Assembly: GCA_024741835.1 (NCBI GenBank)
Contig: JAENRP010000100.1
Location: forward strand, 17,591 to 81,590
Source: Diplocarpon mali
Lineage: Eukaryota > Ascomycota > Leotiomycetes > Helotiales > Drepanopezizaceae
Length of the DNA stretch: 64,000 nucleotides
Direction of reading: 5' to 3'
In this document: one piece after another, positions 3,191 to 41,990 of the stretch
How positions within the stretch are numbered: position 1 is the stretch's first letter
Layout: each line of letters opens with the position of its first letter
Translations under genes and position numbers: made by a program
The notes under the pieces: model-generated
The model's database searches: none
Seen by the model: the letters and a program-made list of their open reading frames with translations, nothing else
Told to the model about the DNA's origin: nothing

Positions 3191-3203
3191 GTGATTTTTT
3201 TTT

Positions 3204-3226
3204 ACTCCTAAGCTGGGCCCGCGAGT
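3204..3226. repeat. 23-nt in-frame hairpin repeat, isolated copy
   Basis: Sequence ACTCCTAAGCTGGGCCCGCGAGT. The arms ACTC and GAGT plus the GC-rich core can pair as a stem of up to 11 bp around one central base. It lies just past the stop of the copia remnant, not within a recognisable domain. It matches the consensus of 23 further copies inside other retroelements in this window. Confidence 0.7.
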
Positions 3227-5844
3227 TGATTTTGACTTATTAAAGGGTGGATTTCCTACTCTAAAGTAGAGCGCGCTAGCGAACTCTACTCCATTTCCTA
3301 TATCTATAGAATTGATTTTTCATACGAAACTATATATTATAATAAAAGTTATAATATTATATATATTGCTAGCGAATACCTTTAAAGGTCTCCTTAAAGG
3401 GGTATATTACAGGTATGCCTATTATATATTTGTCATATAACCTATTATATAATACATTATATATATAATATATTATATAACTTGCTATATAACTTAGCGG
3501 CTTCGCTAAGAAGCCCGCTTACTTTAAATAGCTCTTAGTTAGAGAGCTCTTATGAATCAAGACATCTAACATCGTCGTTTGCACCTCATACTTCTTCGTG
3601 CCCTTTTCTAGTTTACTATTAAGTTTACTATCAAAGAACCTCCTTCCTATACTATACAATCTAGTACTAATGAGGTATATTGAAAGGGAAAAAAATCAAC
3701 CCGAGGAAAATGAAGTTAGAACTTTTCAAAAGCGCTGAAACTAGAATTTTTTCAATCCTGTTTTATAAATACCCTTTACAGTTAGACTCTACCTTGCGTT
3801 TGGGATTGTCTGGACATTACTTGTGATTAGAATAAGGGCTTGATTATAGATATAGAGAGGGATAAGGTGGATTAAAGTACATAAGGAAAAGGAAGAGAGG
3901 AAAGGACACACTTCAAAGCTTTATAGCTTCGAATATTTCTTCAAAATTTAAAGTTAAGAAGAAGGGTTGTAATTGATTATCGCCGCCAACTGGTGAAACG
4001 GGTAGTATGATTAAATAAATAATTGCATTCGCAAGGAGGGCTTATCCTTGGATAGGGAGCCTAAGGCGACAATATTTTCCTAGTACCTCTAGGAATATAC
4101 TTGCCTAAGGCCTAGAGAGAATAATAATTCACTAAGGTTCAAGTTAGATCCTCAGGAGAAGACGACTCGATACCTATATGCGGTATCTCTTAAAAACCTC
4201 TATCTCTTTGAAGAGTCGGCAAAGCTAAGATAAAGTCCCTTCGATATCGGAAGCAGATTCTTAGGCGTTTCGAAGTATATATAAGCACTTTTAACAACAT
4301 ATCAAAACTCCTCACCCTTTCATAAATACCCTCTAATTTCGACCATTACCTGCGTTTTCAAAGATTATTTATGATATATACTTACAATAAAACAAATAGT
4401 TCGATAGTAAAAAAAGACATAAGACAAAGGATAAAATCTAAAGAAAGAGTAAAAGAAAAGGGTATATTGCAAAGTTAGTATAAGCTAGTAAAGAGTTAAG
4501 TTTAGGTACCGGCGATAAGCACGACGCTGGATAAGAAATCAAGTATATAGTGGCAATTATTCAAGGAGGCGCTCGCAGCCTTGGGTAAAACAGTCAAGTT
4601 AGACTTAAAGCAATTCCTTAACTCTAATATCTTTTTGAAGCTCTCCCTTAAGATCTGGTTCAAGTTGAAGACCTAAAGAGCCTTATTTCGAATAAGGTAT
4701 AGAAAGAGACTCTTATTCAAGGAATTGTGTAGGACCAAGTACTAAATAGTAAATTGCGGAGTTTCTTAAGCTAGTTTTATACTGATATATGTAGAGATAT
4801 AGCTATAGCGTTTCCCACTTTTACTATATATTGTAAAACTAACATTGTATATTAAAGGGGAAAAAGAAATTATATTCTTATCTCATTAGAGCCTGCGGGT
4901 ATTGAGGACTAAATACTAAATTTAAGGAGTTATTAAACTAGTTTCTCCTCTTACCTAATGCGACTACAGCGTTTTCTGCTTAAGCTATATATCTTGACAT
5001 ATTCCATAGTACTGAAAAGAAAAAAAGGTAAATAGAATTCTTTAAGGGAGATTCCTTCTCATATATATAGTTGTTATCGATTATCTACTTCTTTTCTCAA
5101 CAAGTCCGGTTAGAAACTCATCTGTTCATTTAAGTTTGAAAGAACTATCGTGGAAAAATGACTATGTTTATGATTTTAAACCGTCTTACTCAAGGGTACT
5201 AGAAATAGCCGTAAGTGCCAGTCGCCTAGTTCTCGAAAAATTGCAGGCATGATGTAACTTCTGCGTTGAATCTCTTGAGTTTTTGTATTACAAGCAGCAA
5301 GTTCAACTCTGCTTGCCGCTTGTCAAATTTGGGAGGCTATTTCTGAACTTTGCTAGAGGCTTAGACGATTCATGCCCAGGTAATGGGCCTTGAAATATGA
5401 ATGTGAGCCAATTACGTGGATCGTTATCTAGTTTTTTTGGAGAAAAGAAGAAGAAAATACTTCGAGATGAGGCAAACGAAATGATCGGGTAAATAGCAAG
5501 AATATGATGGACATGTGATGCGTAGGGTGTATATGTAGATACATATCTTTATTATTAGCTCGGTCAAGATCTTATAATTCCTACTGTCCAAGGAAACAGT
5601 TCAACCGGACACGCAACTCCCAAATAATGTCATCGTCGCATAGCCCCGCTCCCTTCCCGTGGCAGCAATCTTGGTACTCGGCCAGCAGTATGATAATCAT
5701 ACCTGATAACATCCCCGGGTATGGGAGATCACGAACTCGAACCCGAGATGTCCCCTTACGCATACCTTCATTACAATTACATAAGCCTCTCGAAGGAGTG
5801 TATCTCAAATCATGCTCATCGCGACGGAAACCCAAAGAGACTCG
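3227..5844. other. Intergenic, no gene seen
   Basis: AT-rich up to about 3500, then moderate GC. Nothing protein-like was recognised. Two stretches resemble each other (4735-4805 and 4905-4985, both with a TACTAAATA then a GAGTTnnTTAAnCTAG pattern) and may be an old diverged duplication. The last 300 bases are the 3' flank of the phytochrome gene. Confidence 0.4.
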
Positions 5845-10582: not shown

Positions 10583-10672
10583 TAGGATTGTACCTCTGTA
10601 TATAACAGCAAGATGGCTAGACGGAGGCAATTATGGCAGCAGAATCACCAGGTTCACGGCGCTGGGTTCAAG

Positions 10673-10685
10673 TATTTATATATAG
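10673..10685 (-). promoter_or_regulatory. Possible TATA element of the phytochrome gene
   Basis: TATTTATATATAG lies about 90 bp upstream of the predicted ATG at 10582 on the minus strand. Spacing and sequence are compatible with a core promoter. No other promoter evidence is visible. Confidence 0.3.
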
Positions 10686-12576: not shown

Positions 12577-12578
12577 TA

Positions 12579-13859: not shown

Positions 13860-13861
13860 TA

Positions 13862-14705
13862 GAAGTCTAAAGTAACCAGCAAAACTCAAAACAAACATTT
13901 TAGTAATGTTAAGGTTCCAAGACTCGGCTTGTTCCCGCTCTTTTTATTGGAATGGCTGAGACTCCCCCACCTTATGCCAGCAAAGGTGCTAAACAGTGGG
14001 TTTGGGCCTTGAGTGTCCGCGAAATTATAAGAATTTTTGGCAGCGTGAACTCTATACCAACCCGCACATGACCACCAATACTGACCGAGGTAGGAAGTGA
14101 GCATCAGCTACCTTTCTTCGGCTGGGTGTAAATCATGGGGTAAGGCTGCGTCCCTGGAGGCAGAAGAGTTCCTAGAAGTAGCCCCTCAATGAGGCGACGC
14201 GTAATAACCTCTTTCTTGGTTATTAGGGGAGGTTGGTGGTTAGAGAAGCTACTTTTGGCATTGAGTAGGTGGCTAAGGATGGAGATGGTATTATTTCTCT
14301 TCTTTTGGTCACCCCGTAAATACTGGATTGATTGGAATAAAGTAGATTGCTACTCTAATGCTAGGGAGAAAAGAACATTCTCACCCTTCGTAGTAGGTAG
14401 CGAATGTGGGCATTACGTACATTTTGGCTAACTAAAAACTCACCTACCCTAGGAACCAAGGTTCTATGACGGCAGCCTGCTGAGCAAAGGGAGTACCCTG
14501 GTAGCATTTTACACTATGAATGCTTGAAGCCGAAAAGGGCTATCCAGCACGTACCACAGTAGTTTATTGACCGCGGAGAGAACGCAATATAAGATGGCCT
14601 AATATGTCAGTTCGTAAGGTTCAAAGTGTTCGGCTTGCCCGGCTTGCCCGGCTTGCTTTCTCGAACAGTCGGACTCGCGAATTTTGAGAGATTTTCCGCC
14701 TTGAA
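13862..14705. other. Spacer between two transposons, no gene seen
   Basis: GC content is nearer to that of the genic flanks than to the neighbouring transposons. Two short open frames (13886-14104 minus and 14189-14431 plus) have no recognisable domain. A 9-bp repeat, GGCTTGCCC in about 2.8 copies, sits at 14632-14656. Confidence 0.4.
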
Positions 14706-14724
14706 GGCGATCTACTGTGCTCGA
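14706..14724. repeat. Target-site duplication of the LINE, left copy
   Basis: GGCGATCTACTGTGCTCGA matches GGTGATCTACCGTGCTCGA at 42998-43016 except for two C/T differences. The two copies bracket the LINE and all its nested insertions, which fixes the ends of the nest. Confidence 0.85.
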
Positions 14725-17800: not shown

Positions 17801-18643
17801 GGCAAGTTATCCTTCGAGCTGAATCTGTCTAATACCTTAGTATGCAAAGCCTTAGCCTTTTCTAATGTGTCCTCTACCATTTATCCCCTAATATTTAAAG
17901 GTAGGGCCTTGATATTTAGGACTATCTTATACCAAGCGACGACCTTATATAGAGCTATATTATTATAAATGTTATTTAAAACCGACTTCTAGTACTCGGC
18001 CTTGGCTTTCCGCACCTCCTTATAGAAGTGCCTAGTCTTATCTATAGCTCCTCTGCTAGTGCCGAAGCTCTCTAATCGTACAAGTAAGAGCAGGTGTTCC
18101 CGCCTAGTATTCTACACTTCCTCTATCTACTATAGAGCTGACTTAGCTATATCCTAGTTAGGCTTGCCTACTATCTCGATAGCAGTATGAAAGACTAAGC
18201 TAAGAGCTTCTACTAGAATATCTATTTATACGATTGAGGTAATACTCTAAGGGTCCGGTAGTTGCTATATTCCAGCTTCTATTAGGCTTGAGAATCGTAG
18301 GAGCTATACCTTAGGGACCTAGTACTTGAATTGCTTTAAAGGTACGTTGCCCTGGCTAAGGATGATCGAGACTTGCATTCTATAGTCAAAGCTATAGGAG
18401 AGTTCTAGTACAACGGTTGTACTTGCCCTAGGAATGTTTAAGAAAGTCAAATCTAGTACGTATTTGTAGTCTTAGGTTGCTACGCTAGGTTCTTTAATAA
18501 AGTCCATCCAACTGCATCTAAACCACTCTGCTAGCTCCGCTCCCCTTGAGAAGGGGGCTATCCTTAGCTTAAAGGTATTATACTGTACGTTAAAGTCTCC
18601 TCCTACTAGACATTTCTCTAGCGGAGTTAATATAGTAATATAT
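14850..18643 (-). pseudogene. LINE ORF2, 3' part: endonuclease end, RT, RNase H
   Basis: Read on the minus strand from 18643: GGDFNVQYNTF near 18590 (endonuclease core), KLRIAPFSRGAELAEWF, the RT segment with RRPIALLSCVSKGLERV at about 17530-17470, and the catalytic region FDYANDIALY near 17031-17060, where the family has FADD. RNase H follows with a DGS block near 16080, a HWSLGYIGIEGNKAADLLA segment near 15780-15720, and a tail ending near 14870. TAG/TAA stops sit at Gln/Trp positions. A dead copy. Confidence 0.85.
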
Positions 18644-18835
18644 TGAGCTTAAGTGAGTCGGCGCAGTAGGTAATGGAAACTTCTAGAGGTCGATAGTCGA
18701 TATATTAGTAAGAGTTAGGGAAGGAAGGTTACCCCTTTCTTTCTTATAGCTATATACGTATTAATATCCTACTGACTAAGCAGTAGGGTTATATGATAAT
18801 ACATTGGAGTGATAGCTATATCACCTATCTTAATA
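18644..18835 (-). repeat. Copia LTR (3' LTR of the minus-strand element)
   Basis: 192 bp, starting TGAGCTTAAGTGAGTCGGCG and ending TAATA, where the partner has CAACA. It differs from the copy at 24439-24630 mainly by C/T and G/A changes. Confidence 0.9.
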
Positions 18836-18973
18836 CCTCTATTTAGACCTTACTCTGATTGACCTGCAGTTGGGAAAATAACAACTATCCTTTTGCGCTA
18901 ATCTAACTCTTAGGTATCTCTTTAAATTAAAAATAATTAATTAATAGTAACCTCTATTGAAATCACCAATCCT

Positions 18974-19062
18974 ACTTGCGGGGTAGGACTGGGAGTTAAA
19001 TTTCCTAAAAGATGTTCCTTTATAAGACTACGTGACCTAACTCGCGGGGCAGGCCTAGGAGT
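18974..19062. repeat. Two 23-nt hairpin repeats at the copia 3' end
   Basis: Copies at 18974-18996 (ACTTGCGGGGTAGGACTGGGAGT) and 19040-19062 (ACTCGCGGGGCAGGCCTAGGAGT), 66 nt apart, so in the same frame. In the element's direction they read LTPSPTPQV and TTPRPAPRV. They lie just downstream of the RNase H end (VVGA-like). Confidence 0.8.
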
Positions 19063-22000
19063 CGTCCTTGAGCCTGCTAAGCCCCTACTATCTTCTGCAA
19101 CCTTAGTATATCTTTAAATGCTTCGAACTTTGCAACCGTCTCTAGTGGCTTTGTAAATCCATCTGCTACTATTCGATCGGTTAGGATATAGGTGATTGAT
19201 AACTTATTCTTTATAATAAGGTCGCAGATAAAGTGGTAAGCAATATTGATATATTTCGATCGCTTATGCAAGTGTGGATTCTTTATAAGTGCAATCGCCC
19301 TTATATTATCTACTTAAAGATTAATATAGTTCCTATCTTATTTAATATACTTAGCGAAACCTATATCTTTTAGAACTTAAGCGATCTATAATCCTTACTT
19401 GCAATTTGACGATATTGATATATATTCGGCCTTAGTACTTGCAGTAGCTATTGATTTCTGCTTCCTACTTCCCTATAACATAAGTCTGCTATATAGTACT
19501 GCTACGCTTCCAGATATACTTTTCCGACCTTTTATATTTGCCTAGTCGGAATCGGTATATACCTTAAGCTTTGCGCTTATATATTTTATTAGTCTGTATC
19601 TTACCTTTTATATGATTATCGATTGAAGGTATCTTTTAAGTCGCTTAACTGCATTCTTGTATCGAATCGTTAGATCCTTTAGGTTTTGACTAAGTTGCTT
19701 AGTAACAAAGGCGATATCTGGTCTTATATATACTATAGTATATATAATCGCTCTAATATCCTATTAGTACTTCTTTAGATCTTCTCTTTGCTTATTTTCA
19801 TTAGTAGGCTCCAACTTATTATACTTTCCTTCGATTGGAGTACGCTTTAGCTTAAAGTTAGGAGTATAAGTAGAGAGTCCTATTCGGTCTAGGATCTTCT
19901 TAATATATTGCTCTTAATCTAACCAGAGTTCTCGAGTGGAGCGGTTCCTTATGACGCGGATGCTGAGGATCTTATAAATTCCCCCTAGATCCTTAGTATT
20001 AAAACGTTTCCAAATTGTTATAAAGAACCAATCCAATTAAGTAGTTGTTTTCGCAGCTATAGTAATATTATTAATATATAGTAGCAACTTGATTCTACGC
20101 TTAGTATAGGTAAATAGACAAGGGTTAGCTAGGCTTTAAACGAATCCCATTTCTACTAAAGCAGAGCTATATAAGAGGTTCTAATCATAGGCTGATTATT
20201 TAAGCCCGTAGATACTACGGAGTATATAAAAAGAGTAGCTAGCGCGTATAGGAATACCATTAGGTTAGGAGAGAAAAATCCGTTCCTTTATAGTCGCTTT
20301 AGTGAATGCATTTTTAATATCATACTATCTGCATTTAAGGTCCTTAGCGGCTACTATTACTATGAATATGCAAAGGGTATCTATGCGAACTATTAGCGCG
20401 AACGTATTAAAGTAGTCTTCTCCATACTATTAGGAGAAGCCCTTAGCTATAAGCCTTGCTTTATAACGCTTTAGGGTTCTATCTACATATATCTTAATTA
20501 TAAAGACCCACTTTATTAATACTAGGTTCACGTCCTTTAGCATCGGTTCCTCTATCTATATGCCATTTGCAATAAGAGAGCTTATCTCCTCTTAAATTGC
20601 CTTACTCTATACTGCTCTATTTTTCAAATCGTTAATAGCTTTATCGTACGTCTTTAGAAGAGAGATTTTCATTATCCCTTTAGCAGCTAGGAATGCATTA
20701 TCTTCGTCGAAGCTCTATTGAAGTTTGAGCTCGTAGATCTTATACGCTATTATAGCCTAAATACGCTTAGACTCGCGTTCGTCTAAGGTATCTTCTAGTT
20801 CTAGGTTTCTATTCCTCTTTAAGGACGTAAGTTCGGCTGTAGGTTCTATAGGCTTATCATTTAGGGAACCGCTTTCTAGTGGTAGAGGCTTATCGTTACT
20901 TATACCTATTTTAGGAATATCCTTTACTATAGGTGCTTTAATTAAAGGGATAACGATATTAAAGTTGTTTTATACTTTAGGCAGTTTGCAAACAATAGGA
21001 ATAGTCTATTCGGCCTTTGGGCGACTAGTAGGTCGTTGATCAGCGGGTGCGCTTAATATACCCGAGCTTAAAGAGAGGGGTTATTAGTTCGGCTTGATAG
21101 TATTACTATTAAGTAGTATACCTTACGAATCTCTAGGTATATAGAGCTTTAAGGATAGCTCCCTCCTATTTCGAGATTTATTAAACTCAACTATCGAGGA
21201 TATGATTACTTGCCCTAAGTCTAGTATATATACTATCTATTGCTTTATTATCTATTTAATATACTTAACAAATATATACTCTTTACCTTAATCTATTAGC
21301 TTCTTGCTTTTTATACCCGCGGGCCAGGACTTCGGGCTAATATAGGAGTAGCAGACGCTTTTAAAGACGCAGATATAGTCTAGGCTTGGTTTCTATCCGA
21401 AATATGCCTTATATAGTAATATTTAAGTGCTATTGACTATTGGCCTACTACTTATTCTATTTCGCAAGTATGCGTCTGCCTTAACTGCAAGGTCCTAGAA
21501 TTCTAATAGTAAGTTAGCATCTTATAGTAGAGCGCAATAATTAGTCTCTATTTGCTAGATGCTTCACTTAGCGATGCCATTCTAGTAGGAACCTTTATAT
21601 ATTATAGTTAGTTTGTAATAAACTCCTTATTTTGCCTATTTGTTAAGCTTTACCCTAATCTTTAATACATTATCAGACCTAATAGTTATTAGCTTTAACT
21701 AGGTCTAGCGTTCCTCTATCACTTTCCAAGTTTCCAGCTTTTCTATAAGCTTAGATTTGGTCCTAGCGCAAATGGTCCATATCTACTAAGTAGAGTTATC
21801 TACTATTTAAGAAAATCAATTATTTCCTCTAATTAAGGTTATAAATGGTTTAGCAGTATTGATGGATATTAGCGTTAGTATCGAATCTTTCTATAGACTA
21901 AGCTTAGTTTGCGTCCGATTTCGAAGTTTTATTAGCTTGCAAATTCGGCATACTAGGCGATCTTTCGGTACTTAGATCTTCCGTTTTAGGGTTAAGACCT

Positions 22001-24100: not shown

Positions 24101-24438
24101 GTCGAAATGATTAAATAGCAGGTATTATAGAAGTATTAAATAGGAAGGAAGTCCTCTTATTAAAAAGGGTTTTTAGGTTATAACGCAGGGAATTATACCT
24201 CTTATAAAACATAGTAAAGCAAGGAATCATACCTCTTGCAGTACCAAAGGGGTTATAAAGTAAGGAATCATACCTCTTGCAATATAGGTTAGCTGAATAG
24301 GGAATCACACCTCCTATTCGCCGATTGCTTGCCTCTTACTATAAGTCTCGTTCAACTTCCTACTAATAGTTATAGCGCAAGTGCTTTTTAAAAGAAGTTA
24401 ATAATCTATTATCGGTCTATCTAGGGCTTATAACCTAT

Positions 24439-24630
24439 TGAGCTTAAGTGAGTCGGCGTAGTAAGTAATAGAAACTTCTAAAGGTCGATAGTCGATATAT
24501 TAATAAGAGTTAAGGAAGGAAGGTTACCCCTTTCTTTCCTATAGCTATATACATATTAATATCCTACTGACTAAGCAGTAGGGTTATATGATAATACATC
24601 GGAGTGATAGCTGTATCACCTATCTCAACA
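24439..24630 (-). repeat. Copia LTR (5' LTR of the minus-strand element)
   Basis: 192 bp, TGAGCTTAAG...CTATCTCAACA on the + strand. Just inside it (about 24415-24438) the minus strand reads AGGTTATAAGCCCTAG, a candidate primer-binding site. Confidence 0.9.
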
Positions 24631-24960
24631 TAATATAATCTATCACCTTATTTGTAAGTGGTTGTCGGTATATATTGAGTATAGCATAGCCGTTAACGTT
24701 AAGCCAGAGGAGGTCTCGGCTTTAGAGTGGCCGTCGCTATTAGATCTTAAGGGAGGCCCCTTTACGGACGTACGTGAGTACTCAGGGCCTATCTGCGGTA
24801 CTGTTCTAACTGTCTATAGGTATAAACAACTGGTATCTAGGGTGTATTTTTATTATAGTATCCCTATTCGTCTAAGGCTCTTAGATATATATAATATCGA
24901 TTCTCTATTTATAAGCCATACTAAGGAGCGCATTATAGCCTAAGCCTTTGCCTATATTCG
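24631..24960 (-). pseudogene. LINE ORF2 start: endonuclease domain, 5' part
   Basis: The minus-strand translation includes an EPxTNRDTIIKIHPRYQLF-like stretch near 24870-24810 (family: LQEPW...) and LTNKVIDYI just before the copia insertion, continuing as ITILTPLEKCLVGGDFNV at 18643. It is an apurinic-type endonuclease fragment. The small + strand open frame at 24662-24943 is its antisense. Confidence 0.7.
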
Positions 24961-26976: not shown

Positions 26977-29900
26977 TTTTTATGCACTTTTCACCTACGG
27001 GCCGGGCCCGGGAGTCAGAAAACGAAACTAGCAAAACAAACAAATAAGCTATAGAGTTGTAAAAACAATTAAAAATAGTACTAACCTAGATGTCAATTTT
27101 CCTTAGTTCTCTTCGGGGGATAGGAAGAACTATCACTAGATAACACTCTCTTTATAAAGCGCTCACTTCTTCTTAATAGTTCACTATTAGTATCGGAAGA
27201 GTCCGGTCTCGGTGTTGCAAAAGCTTTAGTATTTCGTAAAGATGCTAGTATAGCTTAACGGCTTCTGCCAATAGGGAGGGAGACTTATATCGCAGCATTA
27301 TTGTTATCATCCTCTTTATCATTATTATCATCCTTTAAAGAGTCATCTGCTACTAAGAGGGACGCGGCAGGAGATTCTATAGCCACGACCTCCTTAGCCT
27401 TGCCTTTTTCTAGATTGAGTCGCAGGCCGGGCCTGGGAGTCGTGTCAGGGGTTTTTGCATAAGGCTTTTTAGTGCTATACTTCTTAAGAAGAATTGTCTC
27501 ATCAATTACGTTATTAGCCTTAATATTATTATTAATGCCTTTCGTCTTAGCCTAGGATTTGTCCTTATACAGTTATAGCTCTAAGTGTTAAATCAGTTTC
27601 TAAGTATAGGTAAAATTATTAAAAAGTTCTTACTTATGCTTCTTTAAATAGGTTGTTAGCTGACCTATATCTTTGGATAGCAACTCTTTTACTATTATTA
27701 CTACTAATAGATCGTTCTATAGTCGTCTCCCTATAAGTGCTTCTAATAGTAGGCCACCTTTTGTCATACTAAGTGTTATACGAAACTTGGCTGACGATTC
27801 CCTAGTAATACTCTATCTTATAGTGCTCGGTTTCTTTATACAGATAGACTTAATATAAAACTCGTCCAGGTTGGCACTATTTTCAAGTGAGTTATTGCTA
27901 ATAACTTCTATATAGTTGTTACTAATAGCAAGGAACCTACCTTTTCCAGGCTCTTTGCTAGACTTTAAGTTAACAAACGTTCCTTATCTTATAAATATAG
28001 AGAATAGGGTGGTCTTATTAGAGATATATTCCTTAAGTAGCGTCTTAATCTTAGTATTTAATTCTTTTTACTATATTGCGTTTTATACCAGATTTAGTAA
28101 GACCTATTGAGCATTCTTTAGGCGACAGGAAGTAAAAGCTAATAATTCATAGGATTTTTCCCATATAGCGAATTCTCTAGTTGATTGTTTTACTATAGGT
28201 ATTATATAGTAATTGATAGTCCTACTATCAAGGGAGCTAACCCGCGAGCCGGGCCTAGGAGTTAGCCTTACGAATCTTGTATTAGCGTCAATCTTAGTAG
28301 AAACAACTCTCGAATAGTAGTTAATGCTTATAAATTGTATAGCCTTAGGATACGCCACTAGCTTATATAAAGAATTATAGCGAGTTAATAAAGCACTAAG
28401 ATATAGCCTATAGTGCATCCTTAAAGTCTATTATATCAAACTGTAAGTTATATTATAAAGGAAGGTAGAAGGAGGGGAAGGCTTCTTATCTAAGATTCGG
28501 AAATAGTGCTTATATATTTCTATTTCCTCTTATGCTAATATTAAAAATGAATTCTTTCCTTAAGAACTATGACTATATATGCGAACTATGCTTAAGAATG
28601 CGCAGCTAAACAATTTGGGCATATTTAAGAAACCCTTAGTGCAAAGCGATATTAAGGTATCCTTAATTAGTATCGTTTTATACTAGGCGGGGGTTTAAGC
28701 GATATTATGGAATAATTTTAAAGCCTTAGGTGCTACTCTAAACTTAAAGAAACCTAGCGATATATCTTTTTTAATCTAATTGGCCATTCTATTGCTAATG
28801 GCCACTATTATATGATTTCTAAGGTATAATAAGAATAATCTTAGATTAGGAGCAGTGCAAAATCTATAGAGGTTAGATAATACTTCTTTATTAGTAATGC
28901 CTATTAATGCTAATCTGTAGTATAGTGTATATTATTATTTATAAAGGGTATAAAATTTCTTAAAATGGAAGTCTTTAAATATCCCTATTATGAATTTACT
29001 TAAGCGAGTCTTTATTTCTAGTATCACTATAACTCTGAATCTATTACCACACTATAGTATTATCTTAACGTTAAGAGGGACTTGATAACATTCTATAAAG
29101 ATCATTGTTATAGTGTCTTCGGGCTTCTCCTTAAGCATATAGTAGTCGCCCTTTGATTTCTTATGGTTAATAAAGAACTATATAATATTGTTTAAGGAGA
29201 ATTCGTCTTATTGCAGTTTTATAATCTGTTTGACGGCTCTTGCTATTGCCTCTTGTGCTAATAAAATATCTCCCCGGTTTTCCTTTTTTAAACGCTTTAT
29301 TATAGACTTATAGAATTTCAGAATAAACTTTTGCAGATCTTCGGAAAAGGTTTGTATAATATCGGATATATCCTTCTTAGTATTATTAAAAATTTCTAAT
29401 ACATTAGTAATAGGGCTATCCACTTCATCTGTCAGCTTATCTTCTAAGTCTATATCGTTATGTATTCTAACCTATAGGCCGGGCCTACGACTCGATTTAC
29501 TTGCTACTAGCGTTTGAGGTGTTCGGGGGATTTCTAAGGACAGTAATTCAAACTCGTCTGAGTCGGAAGATAGGTGGTTAGGCTAGTATTCTACTTAAGC
29601 TTTAGGTATTATAGGTACCTTATGCTTAAGGACTTCTTTATTATATGCTTCTTCTACTTATAGGCCGGGCCCACGAGTTAAGTCGGGCTCATTTATTAAT
29701 TCGGCTATAGGTAGTAATAGCTTCGCAGCGGCAGGGATAATAAATTCCTATCTTTCCATTTTATTATCGAAGTAGTTTATAATATACTTAATAAGATAAA
29801 TTATCTTTTCTTTTATAATAAGTAGACTGCATTATGATTATTATAAGCTGAGCGTATCTAGAACTGTTTAGTTAAGGAGTGTAAAATTATTATACCAAGC

Positions 29901-30640
29901 GGGGTTGTCTTTTATAGTCTAAATGGTAGAGTGTATAATAGTGCTTGAGAATCCAATAAATCTTCTGCCTCGAATACTGTTTCCTTGCAACTTCTTTATA
30001 CCTTCTTAGATAGTGAAATAGTTTAAAACCTATATGGCCTTTGCTATAGGTTGGTATGTTTTAAAAATTTTACCAAGCTCCTATAGGGCGTTATTAGCAG
30101 TAATATCGGTTATAAAGTAGGTCTGGAAAAGTGTGCTATAAGTGCTATCTATGAATTATATCAATCTTTTTATATACTCATTTTTCTTATCTCGGTTCTT
30201 CTAAAATAAATCAATTGAATTAGCATACCTTTAATACTCTTATAAAAACTTTTTACAATTAATACCTTTGCCTTAGAGTTCCTTGTCTAAGAAATCATTA
30301 AAACCTAAGAATCCTTCCTTAATAGTAGAAATTCTATAGTTAAGCACCTTAATAGATGAATTTAGGAATACCTACTATTCGGTCTTACCTAATGTTCTAT
30401 AAGTGCTCACTATATCTTCTAATGATCTTAGTGACTTGCTATCCTATAAGAACCCTCCCTCTAATATTAGTTTATTATTAGTAGTGCTTAAGGACTTGCT
30501 ACCTAAGGCAATAACTAATATATTCTTCTTAGGTATGGCCTTTTTGCTTATGGTTAGTAGTACCATAATGAATTATTTAGCAAGGGAGGTAGCTCTAAAC
30601 GAAGAGATGATTATTTAGGAAAGATTAATAATATAGTAGA
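26977..30640 (-). pseudogene. Accessory unit A of the gypsy-type element, unknown protein
   Basis: Not recognised. Minus-strand reading from about 30618 gives long frames broken by TAG/TAA. Visible parts: an acidic/Ser stretch (about 29590-29560); a helical block SDIIQTFSEDLQKFILKFYK, followed by AIARAVKQIIKLQ and NNIIQFFINHKK (29380-29170); a middle part around 28418-28104; and a C-terminus rich in Asp, Asn and Ser ending near SSSYPPKRTKEN (27110). Five copies of the 23-nt hairpin repeat lie in it (26993, 27418, 28240, 29470, 29656); four of them are spaced by multiples of 3. It is homologous to unit B at 31130-34440, so the two are a diverged tandem duplication. A role in retrotransposition (gag- or env-like) or a captured host gene are both possible. 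Confidence 0.45.
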
Positions 30641-31129
30641 CTTGTACTTGAAAAGATTAATAACAGAAAGACAATAGTGGTGGTGCTAATGTTATAGGTC
30701 TGGTAGGGTTGAAAAGAGAAGTAAAAAAAGTAAAATCATAGTGCAAGGAGAGGCTTATTTATAGAGTTTGGAGTCGCATTAGTGTATAAAGGAAAAGTAG
30801 GCATAAAGAGGCTGGAAGTAGGAACAAAAGTGGGGTATGACGCATATAAGGACCTATAATTGGTAAATGATAATTATCAAAGGTAAGGTCGACATTTCAA
30901 AGGTAAGCGTTAGAAAGTTGCATATAAAGGGAATAATCAAAGAATGAATTATATAAAAAGTAAAGTAAATAAAGAATATATATAGAATGGAACAATAGGT
31001 TGAGAATAAAGGGGTATAGGTGTATAGAAAGTAGATAATCTTAAAAAATTCAACTATAATCTGCAATCTCTTTAAATAGTTTTTAAAGGGGGGTAGATTA
31101 TAATTCTCTAGATCGAGTCGACTCAATTA

Positions 31130-34100
31130 TCAGTTCTATTATTACTTCGGAGTCTTCTTCTCTTGCGTTAGTTCTTACTTCTTAGCGATTTCTCAGCTTT
31201 AGGGACCTCTTTCAAAGGATCTTCTATTAATACCTTTAGATTTAGTGACTAAGGTTTATTTAAACTATCTTATAGGCTTAAGCTAGCTGAGTCCAACTTC
31301 ACTCGTAGGCTAGGCTCGCGAGTCAGTCTTAGCGTTTCTAAGCTTAAGGGTAAAAATAGGGAATTGGTTTCCAAATCAGGGTCTAATACTATACTAGTAT
31401 CTTAGTTCGTCTCTTTTCCGAATTTTCTTACAATAATGCCTTTATTAATCAGTGCATTAGGCTCTTAGATAGCATTTACTTTATTGCATTATCCTTAAGA
31501 CTTAAGTCTATAAAGAAGCGACTTAGTATTTATAACGTTTGTCTAGGCCTTAATAAGGGCATTAAAGAGTTTTTGATTATATTTTATAAAGTGGATTTTC
31601 AATTTGTCCTTATTAAAAAGGAACAACTCCTGTACTTCGATTATAATAAAGGGATCCGTCTAAGAGCATCGACTAATAATAGCTTTAAAGAGGCTGCCGC
31701 AGTTCTCGAGATGGAAAGCTGCCTTAAAAGGTGCAGTGGTTCTACTTACGTTAATCTATTAAAGTACTAGAGGTTGCTTTAGAGCAAAGATTGAAAAGAT
31801 AAGATCGGAGATTCGAGTCTCATTTTTTAAGGTATTCTTATCGCAGACGGCCGTATAGTTGTTGCAAAAGGCTATAAAACTACTAGTCCTATAAGAATTG
31901 TCCGAAGGCATTTTAAGGAGGTATCCCTATTTCATTATTACTATAATTGGATTACTATTATTAGTAATAGGTTGCAAGATCTCCTTTCGCTTTAATTTTA
32001 TAATCATTCGAGCTAGTTGAGATTTTGAACCGAGTGCCTAGGAAGTCTATCGACTTATCTTCTTTACGGATAGAGTAAGTTTCATATTTAACTAAGAGCC
32101 GACCTACCTATTAAGGCTTCTAGAAGCTGGCCCTTATCCGATCGGTAAGATCTGATAATCTAAGATTTGCTTTCTAATAAAATTGACTTATAGGCCAGGA
32201 CTGCAAGTGAAAATCGGAATTTCTTTATTAGCAGCACTTGCATCTCTCTTTATCGAAACGACTTAATTATAAAGACTAAGGCCAATCAATTAGGGAGGTT
32301 TAGGGTAGGCTATAAGCTAATAGGTTCCTCTGCTTCTCGCTATTATAATTAAGAGGTAGAGTCCATAGTACATTTGAAGGACTTATTAAGTGAGACTGAA
32401 CATTATATTATAAAGAAAATAAGAAGGTATAGAGGTTGCGCTATCTATAAGGCAAAAGTGATAAAGATATATCTTTGCTTCTTATCTTATAATAGAGAGA
32501 AATATACTTATAAAAGTACTATCATCGGTAGTAAAATTGTTAGTTAGAAAGCGATATCCAAAGGGTTTAAGCATCACAATTGACCCTTCTTCCTCTATTT
32601 CCTCTTGCTATTTATTACTTAATAATATCGAAAAGAAAGAATTGTTCTATTCAATCGGCTCCAACGCCTTTAAGGCTTTAGGATTAGCCCTAAATTTTGC
32701 AGCACCTAGAGATGCCTCTATTATTAATAGGTTGGATTTGCGTATCTTTAAAGAGACGAAGAATTGATTATTAAGGTAGATTAGAAAAAGATTAATATCT
32801 TCTGCTGTATAGAGAAGTTCGAAGTGTTTAATAGTTTCGTTAATATCAAATCCTTTATAATTAAGACTATAGTAAACCGAAAGAGAGCGAATATAAAGGT
32901 CGCAAAGTCTTCTCCCTTCGACTCCTATGCTAGGAAGATACTATCGAAAGCGAGTTTTCATTGCAAAGGACACCTGAATATTATATCGTTCTTTAAGCTC
33001 GAGGTTAAGAATAACCGATTGAGGCATATTGCTATAATTACAAATGTCCTAATCAATAGATTCCTTTTCGCATTCTCTTTCTTATAAGATAAAATAGTCT
33101 TACTTAGCATCTGAGAGACTAGCTTCTTGACTTCTATAATTAATAAAGAATTGAATAATATCCGTAGGGGCGAACTCATTTAGGATAAGCTATTGAATCT
33201 GTCTAATAGCTCTCTTAGTTGTCTTTAGAGCAGTAGGAATAGGGTCTTCCCTTGCATTATCGTTTTCAAAGCAGTTGCATATAGATATAAAGAAGTCAAG
33301 AATTAGCTCTTTCAAGTTGTTAAGGAAGGAGTCCAGACGGGCGCGCAATCCTTTGGTTTCAAATTGCAAATTAGCTAAGGTGGCTATTAAACGATCTATC
33401 CTTTTTAAAGGTCGAACTAAAATTGGTCGTTTAGCTAAAGGAGAGTCCTTTAAAGATTCCGAAAATTCCAAAGAGGCTACGCTAAGCGTTTAGGCAGTTT
33501 GTTTAATAGCGGTTTCTAGAATCATTTTAATAAGAGGTAGGTTGGGTCCAGTTTTAAAATTCTCGTTTTTAACTCCTAGTCCGGGACTGCAAGTCAAATC
33601 ACATAGTTTAGCACTTATCGTATCTTTAGGCTAAGAAGCGAATTTCAAAGCAGGCTTGATTATAAATAACCAATTCCCTTCTTTATTATTAAAGAAATCT
33701 TGTCCAAATCCTGGTATAAGAGTCCAGTTCTCTCTTAAGATAAGCAAACTATAAGCAGAAGCGCGGAGCCCTAGTATATTAATAATAATGCTATTAGGTA
33801 AGGTAATATCTGCAGCCCAATTTGATCTTTTTATAGACCTATCAGCTGCTATAAGTACTGCATTAGATAGGCCTACAAATCTGCGACCGCGAATTCGATT
33901 ACCTTAGAATTTTGCTACTCCTTTCTAAATAATAAAGAAATTGAGAATCTGAATAGCTCTAGCGGTAGGAGTGTTTTCCTTAAGAATTTTTGATAATACT
34001 CGTCTTCTATTATTAGAATCAATATTTGTTAAGAAGCGCGAACGAAATAAGAGTCCTCTTTTGTTAGTGGCTAAATTATCCAGTTGTCGAATAGATTCTT

Positions 34101-34440
34101 CTTTTTTATCTTAGGCCGTTTTGAAAGTGTCGGCCAAGGTTATATATTAATCTGCGTCAGCTAAGAATTCCTCTTTAGAGATTCCCTTTAGTCTTAATTC
34201 TTCAATTAAGAAGTCGTCAAATTGGAGAATTCCAAGGGCCACTTGGGTTGAAAGGTTATTAATAGCATTCGCGTAAGCTAAAAGGAGTTTTTATTACTCT
34301 ATATCTCCTAAGGCTGCGTAGGTCGATTTAAAGCTCTCTAATAATGCAATAGCTCTGCTGTCTTAAGAGAAGTTTATAACTAGTATTTGTTTATCCCTTA
34401 TTATAGCAGACGAAACTATTTGTGAGTTCTTTAAAGGTAT
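31130..34440 (-). pseudogene. Accessory unit B of the gypsy-type element, unknown protein
   Basis: Not recognised. A diverged homologue of unit A: the block LARLDSFLNNLKELILDFF... / TTKRAIRQIQ / TDIIQFFINYRSQE (33390-33130) lines up with unit A's DLQKFILKFYK / RAVKQIIKLQ / NNIIQFFINHKK. The flanks also match in order, including an AATGCCTTT-ATTA stretch near 31435 (unit A 27532). Hairpin repeats at 31301, 32186 and 33572 are 885 and 1386 nt apart, both multiples of 3, and read LTREPSLRV, FTCSPGL and DLTCSPGLGV. RIP stops are frequent. Confidence 0.45.
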
Positions 34441-34693
34441 ATTACTTATAAAAGATGGGGATTATGAATAAGAGAGTTCAATAGGGTATAAGAATTAAAA
34501 GGGCATATAAGCTGCAATAGGTTTGCTATATATGTATTAAGGAATTGGACTTTTTATTTGTTATTTAAGGAAAGTAATAAGAATGCTATAATTAAAGGCT
34601 AATATCAAAAATGCAAAATAAGTCAGAGCAGGCAAGAATTTAAGGTAATCCTAAAAGATCTATATCTTAAATAACAAAGGAGGCGACCTTGCC

Positions 34694-34985
34694 TGTGACG
34701 ACTGGGAGTATAACCTCTGCTCGGCACCGATACGCGTACGAGTCACATAGCAATGCCAATAGAACGTCTCAGTAATGACTTAGAATCAACAACTACTAAG
34801 CCCTAAAGGAGTGGAAGGGCATAGAATATATATATGGAGAAAAGAGGGTCACCCGCTTAGGGGGAGCCGAACCGGATGCCAACCGGGGGTAACCCGGTTC
34901 GTGACCTACACCGAGATTGCGCCAAGCCGTAGCCGAACCGGGTACGAACCGGGGTACAACCTACACATAGTGACAATCCGTCACA
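34694..34985. mobile_element. Solo LTR with TTGCC target duplication
   Basis: 292 bp starting TGTGACGACTGGGAGTATAA and ending GTGACAATCCGTCACA, with 7-bp terminal inverts TGTGACG/CGTCACA. TTGCC stands directly before (34689-34693) and after (34986-34990). GC content is clearly above the surroundings and CpA sites are intact, so it escaped or post-dates RIP. It inserted just downstream of the gypsy pol end. Confidence 0.93.
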
Positions 34986-35039
34986 TTGCCGAAAATGTAA
35001 AAACAAGGATTGTAAGAAGGCAGGACAATTAATAGGCTA

Positions 35040-38000
35040 GGAAATCGTTTAGTATTCCCGTTTGCGTTCTTCGGATATTTTAAGAATAATAACTTAAGGT
35101 CGCGATTAGTTGGGTATTTTGATATTCTTTACTCGCAGGACCGGCTTATAGGTTAAGTTGGAAAAATTTTGATCTTCGTCTAAGGGTTTAAAATTGCTTA
35201 TATCGCTATCGGTTCCTATAGAAGATTCAGAGGTTGTATCAATTTCTGATTTATCTTTTAAGGGAAATAAGGTCTAGTCGCGTTGATAAAAGCGCTTTAG
35301 TCGGTTGGCTGCGAAGGTTCCTTTAATATCGATTCCATTAAGTTCCTAAAGAGAATAGTATCCCTTTTCTTTCTGCTCGGATTTAACCTTAAATAGACTA
35401 AGCTATTAATAGTCAAGTTTAGTATTAGCTGATATATTAATACTTCTTGTAACGTTATAGACTAGGACGAGATCATCTTTTCGAATAGGGTGCGTTTTAA
35501 GTACTTTAAAAGCAGCCTATGCTTCCTTAGCTTTTTCCTAATATCGTTTCTTTCGCAGAATGATTTCCTTTATATCTATATCTTAAAGCTTAAGTTGTCG
35601 GCATCTTATTGCAAGCAAATTAGAATAGTTCTAAATTTGACTATAGTCGAACAATCTCTAAATAGGCCATCGGGATTCAAAAGGAAGCTATACCTCTCTG
35701 CTATAGACAAGGAAAAATAGTATAACTCCAGTCGATTTATAGATTGTTATTCGATAAGCAAAGAGTATTTTATAAAAGTGTTTTATCTAATTCTTAAATC
35801 CTCCGCAGGTAACTTTAAATAGCCTATTAAGAATGTCGCGATATCCTCGCTCTACTACTCTATTAGCTTTCGAGTTGTACGCTAAGATTTGAACCTATTT
35901 GATACTATATTTTCGCGAAAAAGCTTTAACTACTTCTTTATTTTCCAAGCCTCCATTAATAGTTAGTCTGCTAAAAAGTCTATAGCGATAGACCACGTCT
36001 TCCTAGAGGAACTTCGCAATAGATTCAGAGTTAGCAGATCTCAAAGGTCGTCCTTTAGGCTATCCTAATAGGTCTTCCTTTACTAGAACAAAATATATAA
36101 TCTCATTTTCAATTATTAGTACTTATATAATATCGAGACTGACTTTATAGAAAAGGCCTAATGGCTAGGTTGGGAATAGGGGATTCTCTTTATAATTAAG
36201 TTTTCATTTCTAATAAGGGACGCAACTTTTCACAAAGGCTTTGCAGTCCTTAAAAGAACCCTTTTAAAAGAATTTCCTTAAGAGTCAGTAGTAGGTGAAC
36301 TCAGCTCCTCAGTGGCCAGTTTCCTTATAAATATCTTAAATAGCCTTAGCTTGCAGTTTTTCATTATCTATATAAAGCTATATAGGAAATGAGTTATTAC
36401 TCCTTTTAAACAATCGCCGTCCTTGTATTAGATAAATCAGAGCTTTAGCTTTAAACTTTTAAAAATCCTTAAAAGGAACTGTCTTTAGTCGTTTAAGCGT
36501 AACTAAAAATTTTACGATTTCCTTAAAGTCACCTAAGTAGTTAGGTGATAAAATTCTCTTATTTGACTTACGGGCTAGGACCGCGAGTTGAGTCCCTTTA
36601 AGGCGATATATCGATAGATAACCAACTTCATTCTCTACCCACTTATTAATATCTATTTCGTCTTCTTTAATCAAATCAAAGGGGTAGGGGCAAGCTCTTC
36701 TTAAAAGGCCGTCGGCAGCGGTATTTTTCATTCTTAGAATATGTTTAACTTCAAAGTCCATTAGTCTTATTTAAGCAATCTACTTCATTAGCAAGGCTCT
36801 TAATAGGTCGCTTGCAATGCTATTCAATTATTCTACTAGTACTTTAGCATCAGTTTCGAGGATGAAGTAAGTGCTATAGAGGTCGCTTTTCATCTTTTTC
36901 ATTGCCTTTAGGGCGCCTTTGCATTCCCGTTTAATAGCATTATACTTTATCTCTACTAGATTCTAAAGACTACTTTCAAAGCGAGCTAGATGTCTTTTCT
37001 ACTAGCTATTAGCTTATTAAAGGATAGCACCCTATTTAATTAAGCTTGCGTCAACTATTAGTATAATTAGCTTAGCGTCGGCTCTATAGTCTATTTTAAT
37101 CAGATATAGCGCTTTAAGCAACGCTTACTTCAATTGTTTCATAGCCTCTATTTAGGGTTCCTCCTATTGAAACTCAGCCCCTTTCCGAAATAAGGAGTAA
37201 ATAGGTGCTGCCTTTTTAGCGAAATCCTTGATTTAAATGCGATAGTATACCATAATACCAATAAATGCGCAAGCTTCTGCTACGTTATAATACCTCTTCT
37301 ATTTGTCGATTTTAAGTACTTTAGCCCTTTAAGGACTTCGGCCATTGGAATCAGTAACGAAACCAACAATTTCCATTAATAGAAGATAGTATTATAACTT
37401 CGGACCGACCGTTGCTCCTACCCTTTCGAATCGTATAAGCACCTAATCTAGGTTCTAAATGTATTTTATTATAAATCGTTATATACTAAGAAGAACTTCT
37501 TTATAGTTATAGAATGATCTTGATCCTTTTACTCTTATATCGTCTATATAAAGGAGCGCAATATTAGGTATACAATCTACTAGTATCTTATAGATTACTT
37601 AAACAAATTGAGCGATCGAATTTATAGCCCCTTAAGGTAATCTTATTATTTGAAGTAGCTTAAGAGGGGTTTGAATTGCTATTATATCTTTTAATTTAAC
37701 ATTAAGAATAAATTGGTTGTATCTAGAGAAGAAGTTAATAAGAGAGCTGCGGGTTAATCCTGCGAATTTATTTAAGAACTTATCCACATTCGGAGGAACG
37801 TTGGCGTCCTTAATAGTTACTCGGTTCATCTCTACTATTACTATTATTAGTCTATAAGTTCCCTTCTCTTTCTTAGCAACTAGGAACCATTTATTCCTAT
37901 AAGGGCTATTATAGAACTTGAGAATACCTTGCTTCAGCCTATCCTTTAATATTTCGATTACCTTTTCTTAAAGAGCTTTAGGGACCTCGAATATTTTCTC

Positions 38001-41000
38001 TTACTAAGCTTCGTAAGGTATTGTCCTAATCTTAATATAAGGCGTAACCTCTTCTCGAATCTAGCCAAGTTCTATCTAATCAAAAGCTAAGGCGTTCTCT
38101 CGATTTGTTAAGGTTTTATAAAGTAGTTCGCATTCTTACTCTATTAAGTCTTTGCTAATTTTCAGCATATCGAAACGTTCTTTTATTAGTCGATATCCGA
38201 TAGGTTTATTAGAAAATCTGCCTATAATAAACTTATCGAATTTGCCACCTGGCTTTAGAGGTCGAAGCTTCTTATCTTATTCAAACCAATCATCTAGTCC
38301 TCTAGGCTTTAAGCCGTTAGAGATTCCCTAATCCACTAGTCGTACTTTATTAGCCTTACTTTTATATATAGTTCGAATATTAGCTAGTACTATGCTTCTT
38401 TACTTCTTTCCTTTTTTATCAAATCCTGCGAAACGGTCCGAATTTTCCTTTTTAAAAACAAATAAAAGATTTTCTAAGTTATCAATTTAAAGTGTGTAGA
38501 TAGAAATATCATTAGTAATTTTATTGTTTTTCACTTGCAGGTCCGGCTTATAAGTGGTTTTTAAGTTTTTCAAAATGATTAATAAATTGTTAAGATTTAT
38601 AAAACAAACTCTCTTCTCTACCTTATTTTTCTTTTTTCTTAATTATTGAATTAATAAAACGCCGATTGTACTATTTTTTAAAATTCCAGATTTGACTCCT
38701 AGTCTAGGATCGCGAGTTAAATCATTATTATTCAAAATCGACAAACTCACCTTTCTTTTACTATAACTCCTTACTAAGTGCCTTCCTTTACTAGTATTAA
38801 GCCTAGCCCTTATGCTAGCTAATCGTTTCCCAAAACCTTATTCTAAAATTCGGCTATATCTCTTGCAATAACCATTTATCCTTTTAAGGATCGATCTATA
38901 TTCTAAAGGCTAGCTTTTATAAGCCTATCTTTAAGATAGTTAAATATTAGCTGAGATTTTAAAATAAAGGGCATTCTTAAAAGAATATCGTTTAAAGAAT
39001 TCTTTATTATTAGAAAGTCAGTATAATTAACGATTCCTTTAACTCTAACCTTTACGTTTTTCACCTATCTATCAAAATTGTATTTCGATCTAAAGATAGT
39101 CGAATAAATAAGGAGTCGATTGCTAACGATTGTCAATCGAGCCATTTCTACCACTTTTCTAGTTATTATATTAACTTCTGAACCATAATCGATTAGAGCC
39201 TTTGCTTTAATTGATTCTTCTATAAAATAAATAATAATAGGGCTTTTTATTGCAATTGCTAAACAATTTCAATTGATATTCTAAGATGTTAAAGCTATTG
39301 CCATAATGTTATAGTACCTCTAGGTTCCTTTGTCTTTTGCAATTTAAAGACATTTGATTAAGGCTAAGTGCTTCTCGGAGTTCTTTCGCATTACAATTTC
39401 CATTTCCTTATTATTATTCAAATCTTTAAAGGTAACTGGGATATGCTTTCTTAGCACTTTATCAAAGCGTTTAATCAAACTAAATAGGTCTTTAAATGTG
39501 AGGTTAATTTGCTAAGCTATAACATTCTCTATAGCTTTCTCTATTATAGTTGAACTAGCGTATTTGTCGACGAATTTCTCCTGTTTTAATATCTGTCTCT
39601 TTCGCTTAGGGTTAGGGGTCTGCGCAATAACTTCGACTTTTTAATCTTCGAGCTTAAAGCTATCTTCGTCTATTATATCTCTAATCAATTTGTCTATTAT
39701 ATCGGCTTTATCCTCGTCTACTGCAGTTCCAGATTATTAAGTATCTTTTAGCGTTTAGACTCTATATTAAGATTCCTAAGTTGCACGTATTGATTTCTAG
39801 ACTTTGGCTGGTTTTATTAGTATTAAGGGAGTGGTAGATCTAGAAGGACGATAAGTATTCTAAGGGTTTCTAGATATAGAAGTAGTATTAATATTAGTAG
39901 ATACGTTATTATTGACCCACCTTAAAATAGAGATTCCTCTAACTTCAGTGGCTGTTTAATTAAAAGCCGGGTCCTTAAGAACTCCCTTAGGTAGGTTACT
40001 AATTGGACCTATATATATATAAGTTGGAATTTTGGCGTTTATATCTATAATACGCTATCGTTCAACTAAATTCTTATCCTATTTCGTACCATATATCATT
40101 ATTCGAACAATCTATAACTATAAGCGATTCTGGTGCTTTTTAATAGGGATAGCTTTTAGCCTAGGATCTCTAATGCAAAGCATCCTATACTTATTAATAT
40201 GCATAACCCTAGTGTTAATAAAACGATAGAAAAGAGGGCAATCGTTGCGATACTTATATAAAGCGCAGTTGGGTTCTTTATTATTGCAAAAGTTATAGGT
40301 TAGTCGTCTTCTATTGCTATTCCCTTAGTACTCTATAGCATTAATATTAGCAGAGTGCTAATTGGGATTAATTTCTCCTTCTTTAGTCAACTGTTAAGTT
40401 CTTATATTAGCTAGTTATTCCAAATGATAAAAAGCAGGAGTCTAGTAATAAGAACTACTAAGTTAGCTTATAATAGCCGAGTTTTGCCTATTATTAAATT
40501 GCGGAATATGCTATTTTTCCTATAAGAGATTATTAATCTTAGTTTCTAAGCTTTAGATTCGGAGTTTTGTAAATTAGGTCTTAAGTTCCTTAATTCTAAG
40601 GTTGGATCTTACTCCTAGGTCGGGACCGCAAGTGAAAGGTATAACTACTAAGTTCTTCTTTACCTCCTCTATGACTTCTAGAGCTTTCGAGTGTTCTTAG
40701 ACCAGGCTCTTAAGGTCTTTAGTATAAGAGGGAGTAGGGGCTTTTTCCTATTCTATAGCATTAATAGTTCTCTTATTAAGATCTGATTTTAAAGCAAAGG
40801 CCGAGAATTCCTTAAATAAGGCGAAGGTTATAGGGTCTTGCTTATCGATCCTAAAATGCTTGATGATCTTATTTCAAAGGCTAATAGGTAATCCGAGTAA
40901 GAAAAGGCGGCCTTATTCAACTTTGCTAAGTATTTTCTAGCTGATTAAGGTATTTGATATATAAGTAAAAGTCCGATAGTAGTTCTTAAGTTCCTTAGGA

Positions 41001-41990
41001 GTTCGAGTGACTAGAATAAACTCCTTTAAGAAAGCCAGAGTATTGCAAATCTACTATCTGTCAAATTCTTAGAATTCAAACTTAAGAGCCTTAATAAGGA
41101 GTTCCTATAAATTATACGTCTTCTATTTAAGGAGGGATTTGATAATATCTTTGCTTATATAGTCATAGTAGCAAGGGAGCCGAGAAATCATATCCGCTTA
41201 TAGAATACCAAAATTGTAATAAGTTTCCTTATATTACTTAAGGAAATTAGTAATATTAGCTCCTATAAAGTAAGGAGTATTAGGAGAACTAAAGAGGGGA
41301 AAGTGGCTAGTAATAGCCTTAAATGCGGCTATTATCGTTTTATACTAACCGTTTAGATTAATAGAATCCATAGGGGGCAAAGGGGAAGCCTTGATATCGC
41401 GTAATTGGTTGCTAAGAGGAGTACTTCGAAATTCAAAAGGGCTTAAAGAACGTTCAGAATCCGAGTCAATCTTAGAGTGACTAGGACGAGTTTGAAAAGA
41501 TTCGGATAAAGGGTTGGCGAAAAGTTCAAAATTGATATTATTTTTAATGTTTTCTAATATCGATATTAAAAAAGTAAGTAGCAGCCTTAAGTTGTTTAAA
41601 GACGTCTTTTTATCCTTCTACTTATAAGCTAGGCTTAGGAGTGGAATTCCGGATTCTATTAAAAGTTTAATCCGAGTTTGCTAAGAGATTCTAAGTAGAT
41701 GCTAAATAGCTAATAGGAGCGTTGCGACTAATCGTAATAAGATAAGGTTTATTTAATCTAAGACAAATTTCTAAGATAAGGTTTGTATTTAAGATTCTTC
41801 TTAGCCTTTAGGCCAATTCCTATTAGTCCTTAGAATAAAGGGGTCTTTAGAGACGATTCCAAGGCAGTTTTTAAAGTTCTATCGAGCCGAGGCGGCTGAA
41901 TTATTAGATTCGGATTTCTAAAGATTCTAAAGAGACACTTCCAGTTGGAGTTTGCGCTTAGTATTACTTAAGTACTTAAAACCACCGCTA
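35040..41990 (-). pseudogene. Ty3/gypsy gag-pol, RIP-damaged
   Basis: Minus strand order: gag (NITNFLKxYKETYYNFG near 41250, RLPCYYDYISKDIIKSL near 41190-41140), a Cys-rich knuckle remnant near 40300, aspartic protease region (DYGSEVNIITRKVVEMARL, 39190-39130), RT with NIALLYIDDI near 37560-37535, RNase H (EIKYNAIKRECKGALKA near 36960-36910), and the integrase zinc region with H, C and C near 36330-36200, continuing to RVKNIKIPN near 35110. Order RT-RH-IN identifies Ty3/gypsy. Six hairpin repeats (35131, 36566, 38533, 38695, 40611, 41620) lie between domains or in the tail. Confidence 0.87.

Follow-up and report, generated by a model that had tools for sequence, protein, structure and literature searches.

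Analysis of a 64,000-nt stretch of the Diplocarpon mali genome (contig JAENRP010000100.1; hereafter the window) and of the 49.4-Mb genome to which it belongs revealed a family of 23-nt repeats, whose description as a dispersed coding mini-palindrome of long terminal repeat (LTR) retrotransposons is well supported. The repeat is an imperfect 23-bp palindrome consisting of two inverted 11-bp half-sites with one free base between them; both halves fit one degenerate consensus, and the centre is strictly one base. It occurred across element families, kept a rigid length, and showed a bias in reading phase, both orientations, lineage-specific presence and changes in tandem copy number. We hold with about even confidence that the palindrome spread as DNA among LTR elements, was kept in frame, was amplified by transposition and was blurred by repeat-induced point mutation (RIP).

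An earlier note made from the window had listed 24 copies, and the 23-mer was found at the listed start in all of them (24/24). A symmetric weight matrix, trained on the same 24 copies that it scored, gave them 21.6–31.7 bits and the next window site (21315) 15.6 bits; on 20 second-order-Markov shuffles the maximum was 23.0 bits, reached in one shuffle. A genome-wide scan showed that the family is discrete: the degenerate 23-mer ACTYNYRRKCYNRGMYYRNRAGT had 6,575 exact matches in the genome versus 0 for the reversed pattern used as a control, and 10,833 versus 1 when ≤1 mismatch was allowed; we put the total at roughly 11,000 copies. The length is rigid at 23 nt, as had been claimed, since a 24-nt version with one extra central base matched only once (control, 2). 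Within 249 kb of own-genome sequence, 69, 43 and 14 places were found at 0, 1 and 2 mismatches to the 23-mer (reversed control, 0/0/0), and the 5 places at 3 mismatches were at control level (7). The motif was GC-rich within AT-rich DNA (GC 0.488 inside versus 0.315 in the flanks), also as the note had stated. The flank profile of 40 site representatives revealed no GTAG or CGTC tag at the repeat end, and viral contigs, tried for the repeat in DNA of other species, yielded nothing. A search of a literature collection listed no description of the 23-nt repeat, and the string "palindrom" was absent from the main texts of the genome papers considered on Diplocarpon coronariae (Marssonina coronaria) and M. 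brunnea.

The 24 window copies were spread over three repeats: a Ty3/gypsy element (A, 14 copies), an unclassified repeat (B, 9) and a copia element (E, 1). Thus the claim that the motif is shared by unrelated elements including copia and gypsy held, although the number of carriers was three and not five. A second Ty3 element, C, located outside the window, also carries the repeat, and the same 23-mer lies in unrelated surroundings in E, A, C and B. The closest named proteins were those of Diplocarpon coronariae. For repeat B, three plus-strand frames of a relative (L030) were without a Pfam match, and no protein homologs were found for the open reading frame (ORF) of the array. No copy at ≤2 mismatches was present in the window beyond position 41642 or in three own-genome regions of GC 0.50–0.60 (L033, L036 and L037; 28.3 kb without N).

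Comparison of element copies revealed that 90% of the flank differences were transitions (C/T or G/A), and the observed/expected ratios of CpA/TpG were 0.46/0.47 in the flanks versus 1.02/1.02 in genic DNA. Transition-type change and depletion of CpA/TpG are the expected outcome of RIP. The Y and R positions of the motif reflect this damage, and its letter variation is mostly of the RIP type (C/T, G/A). A direct search for the undamaged form, with only positions 5, 6, 9, 12, 15, 18 and 19 left open, gave 123 copies versus 0 in controls. Among the 50 undamaged copies listed, 47 share an unpaired 5–19 (44 C.C and 3 T.C); one strand of these reads TPGPGPRV (44) or TLGPGPRV (3), and the other TRGPGPGV (44) or TRGPGPRV (3). 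The 20 undamaged regions examined, a selection among the first 50 places in the set of 123, all fell at known sites of A, B, C and E (1, 1, 9 and 9, respectively; flanks read by eye). Two other ideas were rejected. The impression of a hypervariable motif, gained from two element copies, did not hold, since G/C-containing columns diverged by 28% in the motif and 34% in the flanks, where most changes were transitions; survival of RIP alone would account for the GC-rich look but not for 6,575 copies of identical length.

Reading phase was judged by protein matches; a count based on ORFs (50/52) was not used, since the stops that RIP creates in the other phases bias it. All five C copies, in three clusters, were in the frame of the D. 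coronariae protein P0054, and all six E copies, also in three clusters, were in register with the RVT_2 frame by coordinates, the intervening frame being unchecked. For A, three of the four pol copies were in the frame of pol homologs wherever an element copy covers them (two of the three lie just upstream of the aligned block), and the copy at 36566 was in another pol phase in 5/5 element copies. Counting tandem neighbours once and leaving out the 3′ half of A, phase 0 was found in 9 of 10 site clusters (binomial p ~4e-4, computed by hand). The idea of a single coding frame therefore applies to most copies, but not to the one at 36566 or to the stop-rich group of B, which comprises two or three copies depending on the element, at spacings of 61, 64 or 66 nt (L020:3624-3771, L027:7900-8049 and window 18974-19062). 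Several phase-0 copies sit in linkers between protein domains, a placement that the note had also described. Both orientations occur in phase 0, with half-site class YY in C and RR in A (C1b 7862) and E (C1c 14299), and the purine/pyrimidine classes at positions 5 and 19 were uniform within each of 41 site groups.

When element copies of one family were aligned, the repeat was kept in 155 of 165 site pairs (≤2 mismatches) and not in the other 10, some of them misaligned. Copies thus recur at the same place within families, indicating that the few dozen sites seen were multiplied by transposition. Different families have different sites. A constant aligned position, which the earlier note would have taken as a sign of plain inheritance, was accordingly seen within families but not between them, where homologs also lack one block and tandem number varies. 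A distant relative of A, C1d, has two sites in common with it; a third is absent there, at a place where the alignment of the left flank is poor. The two-copy block between protease (PR) and reverse transcriptase (RT) of C was missing from 10/10 homologs of other fungi. At the RNase H–integrase site, the peptide was present in three D. coronariae proteins, and look-alikes were present in P0045 (TREPGARV) and, in a weaker form, P0047 (TPEPSPQV); none was seen in ten others. One C site holds one tandem unit (L040, C1b), two (C1c, P0043, P0044) or at least three (L049, L052), and many other sites hold a single unit. The periods of the tandem arrays were 39, 45, 48 and 54 nt, and by eye the spacer within the C pair resembled those of the B array. 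In L048 and L057, a short remnant resembling the motif minus its inner 15 nt follows the last tandem unit.

In the reading that we prefer, the palindrome would spread as DNA, in either orientation, between LTR retrotransposons of the fungus. It may be copied when the RT switches strands at the palindrome, which would account for its being seen mainly in LTR elements. Coding regions would keep almost only the phase that reads T-P-G-P-G-P-R-V or T-R-G-P-G-P-G-V in the undamaged form, presumably through selection against loss of frame; transposition would then multiply a few dozen sites to roughly 11,000 copies, and RIP would blur most of them through C/T and G/A changes. A bolder form of this scenario, which we consider improbable, is a self-copying 23-bp micro-element that parasitises reverse transcription: the palindrome would make the RT of retroelements jump. 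In this way it would pass between unrelated copia and Ty3 elements and build up tandem arrays, and it would persist because both of its orientations can be read in frame.

Several observations weigh against spread as DNA with retention in frame. No clean empty site was found; over five sites, the copies of two elements differed from the query by ≤13 nt net (best 40 of 295 and best 40 of 197). Target-site duplication was not convincing, as direct repeats at offsets of 26–37 reached a best z of 1.8 in raw letters and 2.1 in purine/pyrimidine coding, at offset 30 (24 tests); one site has a TGATTTT pair on its flanks. The PR–RT linkers of homologs vary in length, and the PR–RT pair of C sits between two P0054 matches of the same frame in 234 nt that P0054 lacks, which are probably a predicted intron in P0054 because a block conserved in other homologs is also missing. 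None of the 64 forms of ACTCCYGGKCCNGGMCCRCGAGT contained a stop in any of the six frames, so that stop avoidance alone cannot explain the phase. The eight copies in the 3′ half of A behave unevenly: seven have a common frame in C1b_A1, but the copies occupy two frames in C1b_A2 and the window copy and three in C166. A copia-like family, D (L038, L039), had no copy at ≤2 mismatches. The template-switch steps are ones that we infer throughout; no enzyme or source element was found, no search aimed at a tyrosine transposase having been made. Finally, the constraint on the motif described below exceeds what a merely tolerated passenger needs. The note had suggested a fungal analogue of palindromes inserted in frame into protein genes; the part that stood is a palindrome common to LTR elements of unrelated kinds and read for the most part in a single phase. 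The block missing in homologs lies in linkers of variable length, and no clean presence/absence of a single unit with a defined junction was obtained.

This constraint is best explained if the repeat is a cis-acting recognition site, bound as half-sites on DNA or cDNA by a symmetric (dimeric) protein of the host or the element; LTR elements would benefit from many sites, and the coding copies would be those accommodated in frame. We regard this explanation as unlikely, though worth serious attention. A single consensus in both halves with a strict one-base centre is consistent with it. Comparison of 155 pairs of element copies, after 10 gapped pairs had been dropped, showed that transversions were rarer in the core (6/2,170) than in the flanks (343/18,475), with 6/620 at four third-codon positions, and that the five free positions (15/775) resembled the flanks. 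The bootstrap ratio of the core plus the four third positions to the flanks was 0.25, with a wide interval (0–0.66), and 7% of bootstraps were ≥0.5, the ratio that selection of copies matching the pattern could give alone; such selection, which was applied here, is a partial cause of the low value. Between A and C1d, whose flanks differ by 15–18% transversions, the transversions of the two shared motifs were confined to positions 9, 12 and 15, plus one at position 10. These data favour some sequence constraint on the motif, but no binder is known and family D is without the site.

A selected peptide module appears decidedly less probable. According to this explanation, T-[PR]-G-P-G-P-[RG]-V is a flexible linker or processing site that spreads as a coding repeat, and the palindrome is a by-product of its codons. 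The phase-0 majority, the copies in linkers and the coincidence of the variable positions 9, 12 and 15 with third codon positions would fit, as would the occurrence of similar peptides in pol proteins not named Diplocarpon: in addition to the one in P0045, TREPGPRV was found in P0057 at another linker. With a score devised after P0045 and P0001 had been seen and before P0057 was found, two peptides reached ≥13 in 159 proteins excluding the three of D. coronariae (0 in 60 shuffles), and non-Diplocarpon matches numbered 5 at a score of ≥9 versus 0.92 expected and 4 at ≥11 versus 0.07 expected. However, copies on the opposite strand encode a different peptide while the same DNA is kept, third positions 3 and 21 are invariant (95/95) and nearly invariant (87/95), respectively, and positions 6, 9, 15 and 18 are restricted; moreover, one site in pol lies outside phase 0, and the stop-rich group is not spaced by threes.

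The note had also proposed an RNA hairpin as the working unit, and the analysis did not bear this out; a conserved hairpin for packaging, dimerisation or translation is now very doubtful. Folding energies of −10.6 to −14.2 kcal/mol were obtained for three undamaged 23-mers and for their complements, but the window copies in their present form are only slightly more stable than shuffled sequences (mean z −0.53 and −0.44). Among the 6,575 exact copies, those of one site not being independent, positions 5–19 are purine–pyrimidine in 845 and not in 5,730, and 9–15 pair (G-C or T-A) in 2,201 and not in 4,374; perfect pairing is thus not kept, and 5–19 is also unpaired in most of the undamaged copies. 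The 5–19 mismatch was conserved at 31 of 41 sites (p 0.0005), a result weaker than it appears because array sites were counted separately. The association of position 9 with 15 in undamaged copies was not significant (p 0.13 and 0.41), which is not proof of independence. A covarying hairpin was not supported, since base pairs are not kept by compensation; the repeat has no Rfam match, and 14 copies lie within one element. Ordinary inherited coding sequence with minisatellite expansion and no dispersal between families, which the copies kept in place within families, the array periods and the similar spacers would suit, is highly improbable and largely refuted by the cross-family distribution, namely the same 23-mer with unrelated flanks and in both orientations in copia, Ty3 and unclassified repeats, together with the block missing in homologs.

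The features of the window are summarized in Table 1. Three minus-strand frames of the ~7.7-kb 3′ half of A (26977-34692) were without a Pfam match at a threshold of E 0.01, and one short ORF there had a sub-threshold Gag_p24_C match. Seven of the eight motifs in this half have a common frame in one element copy, and it is possibly an additional long ORF. Relative to the C1b copies, element A contains ~290 extra bases at 34693-34982. Just before the motif at the copia element end, AAGGGGTGATTTTTT-like sequence resembling a polypurine tract is repeated at 3150-3204 and, with more units, at L028:7650-7764. A phytochrome-like host gene with HATPase_c and PAS_2 matches lies at 6182-9946, and gelsolin and Ric8 genes at ~53-60 kb. 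Region L032 (C100:7591-17590) consists of 10,000 N.

Table 1 Carrier elements and copies of the 23-nt repeat in the window
Feature	Position	Strand	Remarks
Copia-like element fragment, family E	1598..3656	+	One copy of the repeat; 86% match to C1c 16102-18191; RVT_2 in relative (L028 frame 4602)
23-nt repeat	3204..3226	not assigned	End of copia element E, past RT match
Repeat B, unclassified, multi-copy	18638..24635	not assigned	90% match to C3 2467-8464
23-nt repeats	18974..18996, 19040..19062		Stop-rich part of B
23-nt repeats	22174..22196, 22222..22244, 22270..22292, 22309..22331, 22357..22379, 22396..22418, 22486..22508		Tandem array of B, spacing a multiple of 3
Ty3/gypsy LTR element A, ~15.6 kb	26977..42563	− (coding strand)	Matches to C1b copies; RNase H, integrase zinc-binding and weak protease matches
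23-nt repeat	26993..27015		Near 3′ end of A
23-nt repeats	27418..27440, 28240..28262, 29470..29492, 29656..29678, 31301..31323, 33572..33594		3′ half of A
23-nt repeat	32186..32208		3′ half of A; common to distant relative C1d
23-nt repeat	35131..35153		Past integrase region of A; in phase 0 of pol; not seen in C1d (poor alignment of left flank)
23-nt repeat	36566..36588		Between RNase H and integrase matches of A; not phase 0
23-nt repeat	38533..38555		Just upstream of aligned RT block of A; phase 0
23-nt repeat	38695..38717		Between protease match and RT of A; phase 0 of RT frame
23-nt repeat	40611..40633		5′ side of A
23-nt repeat	41620..41642		Close to 5′ end of A; common to C1d

In-frame palindromic repeats have been described from bacteria, and the present family is fungal and so far seen only in repeats, mostly LTR retrotransposons. 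Such a family, common to unrelated superfamilies and with an in-frame reading on both strands, would demonstrate that repeats of less than 30 bp can colonise the polyproteins of retroelements, and would offer a natural assay of the way in which they are copied. Because some copies are undamaged and stand next to RIP-damaged ones, the original form of the repeat can be seen directly. The mobile hairpins of fungal mitochondria (byp elements, PstI palindromes and GC clusters) are likewise mobile palindromes that are short, rich in GC and embedded in AT-rich DNA, in part within genes, but they are organellar and have no tie to retrotransposons. As in minisatellites, the tandem number of the 23-nt repeat varied at one site. 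Comparison with published systems revealed likenesses and differences in each case. Rickettsia palindromic elements (RPEs) are short palindromes in coding sequence that leave the frame undisrupted (PMC4316617); they measure ~100–150 nt and occur in bacterial genes, RNAs and intergenic DNA, whereas the repeat described here is 23 nt long, fungal, and located in repeats, mostly LTR retroelements, in the copies examined. Because of its length, we do not file it with the RPEs. The REP/RAYT repeats of bacteria are also high-copy palindromes, of 20–40 bp (PMC3733652), but lie mostly outside genes and have an unpaired GTAG or CGTC tag and RAYT transposases; the present repeat is intragenic, with no tag seen and no partner enzyme known. 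Palindromic amphipathic repeat coding elements (PARCEL) are likewise coding repeats that have dyad symmetry, vary in tandem number and are linked to mobile elements (PMC2996958), but encode 25 amphipathic, sequence-variable residues, in contrast to the eight Pro/Gly-rich residues (TPGPGPRV) and conserved DNA found here. The coding palindromes of Nematomorpha mitochondria are inverted repeats within protein genes as well (PMC6649704), but these are perfect, up to 284 bp long and mitochondrial, and do not form a short nuclear family.

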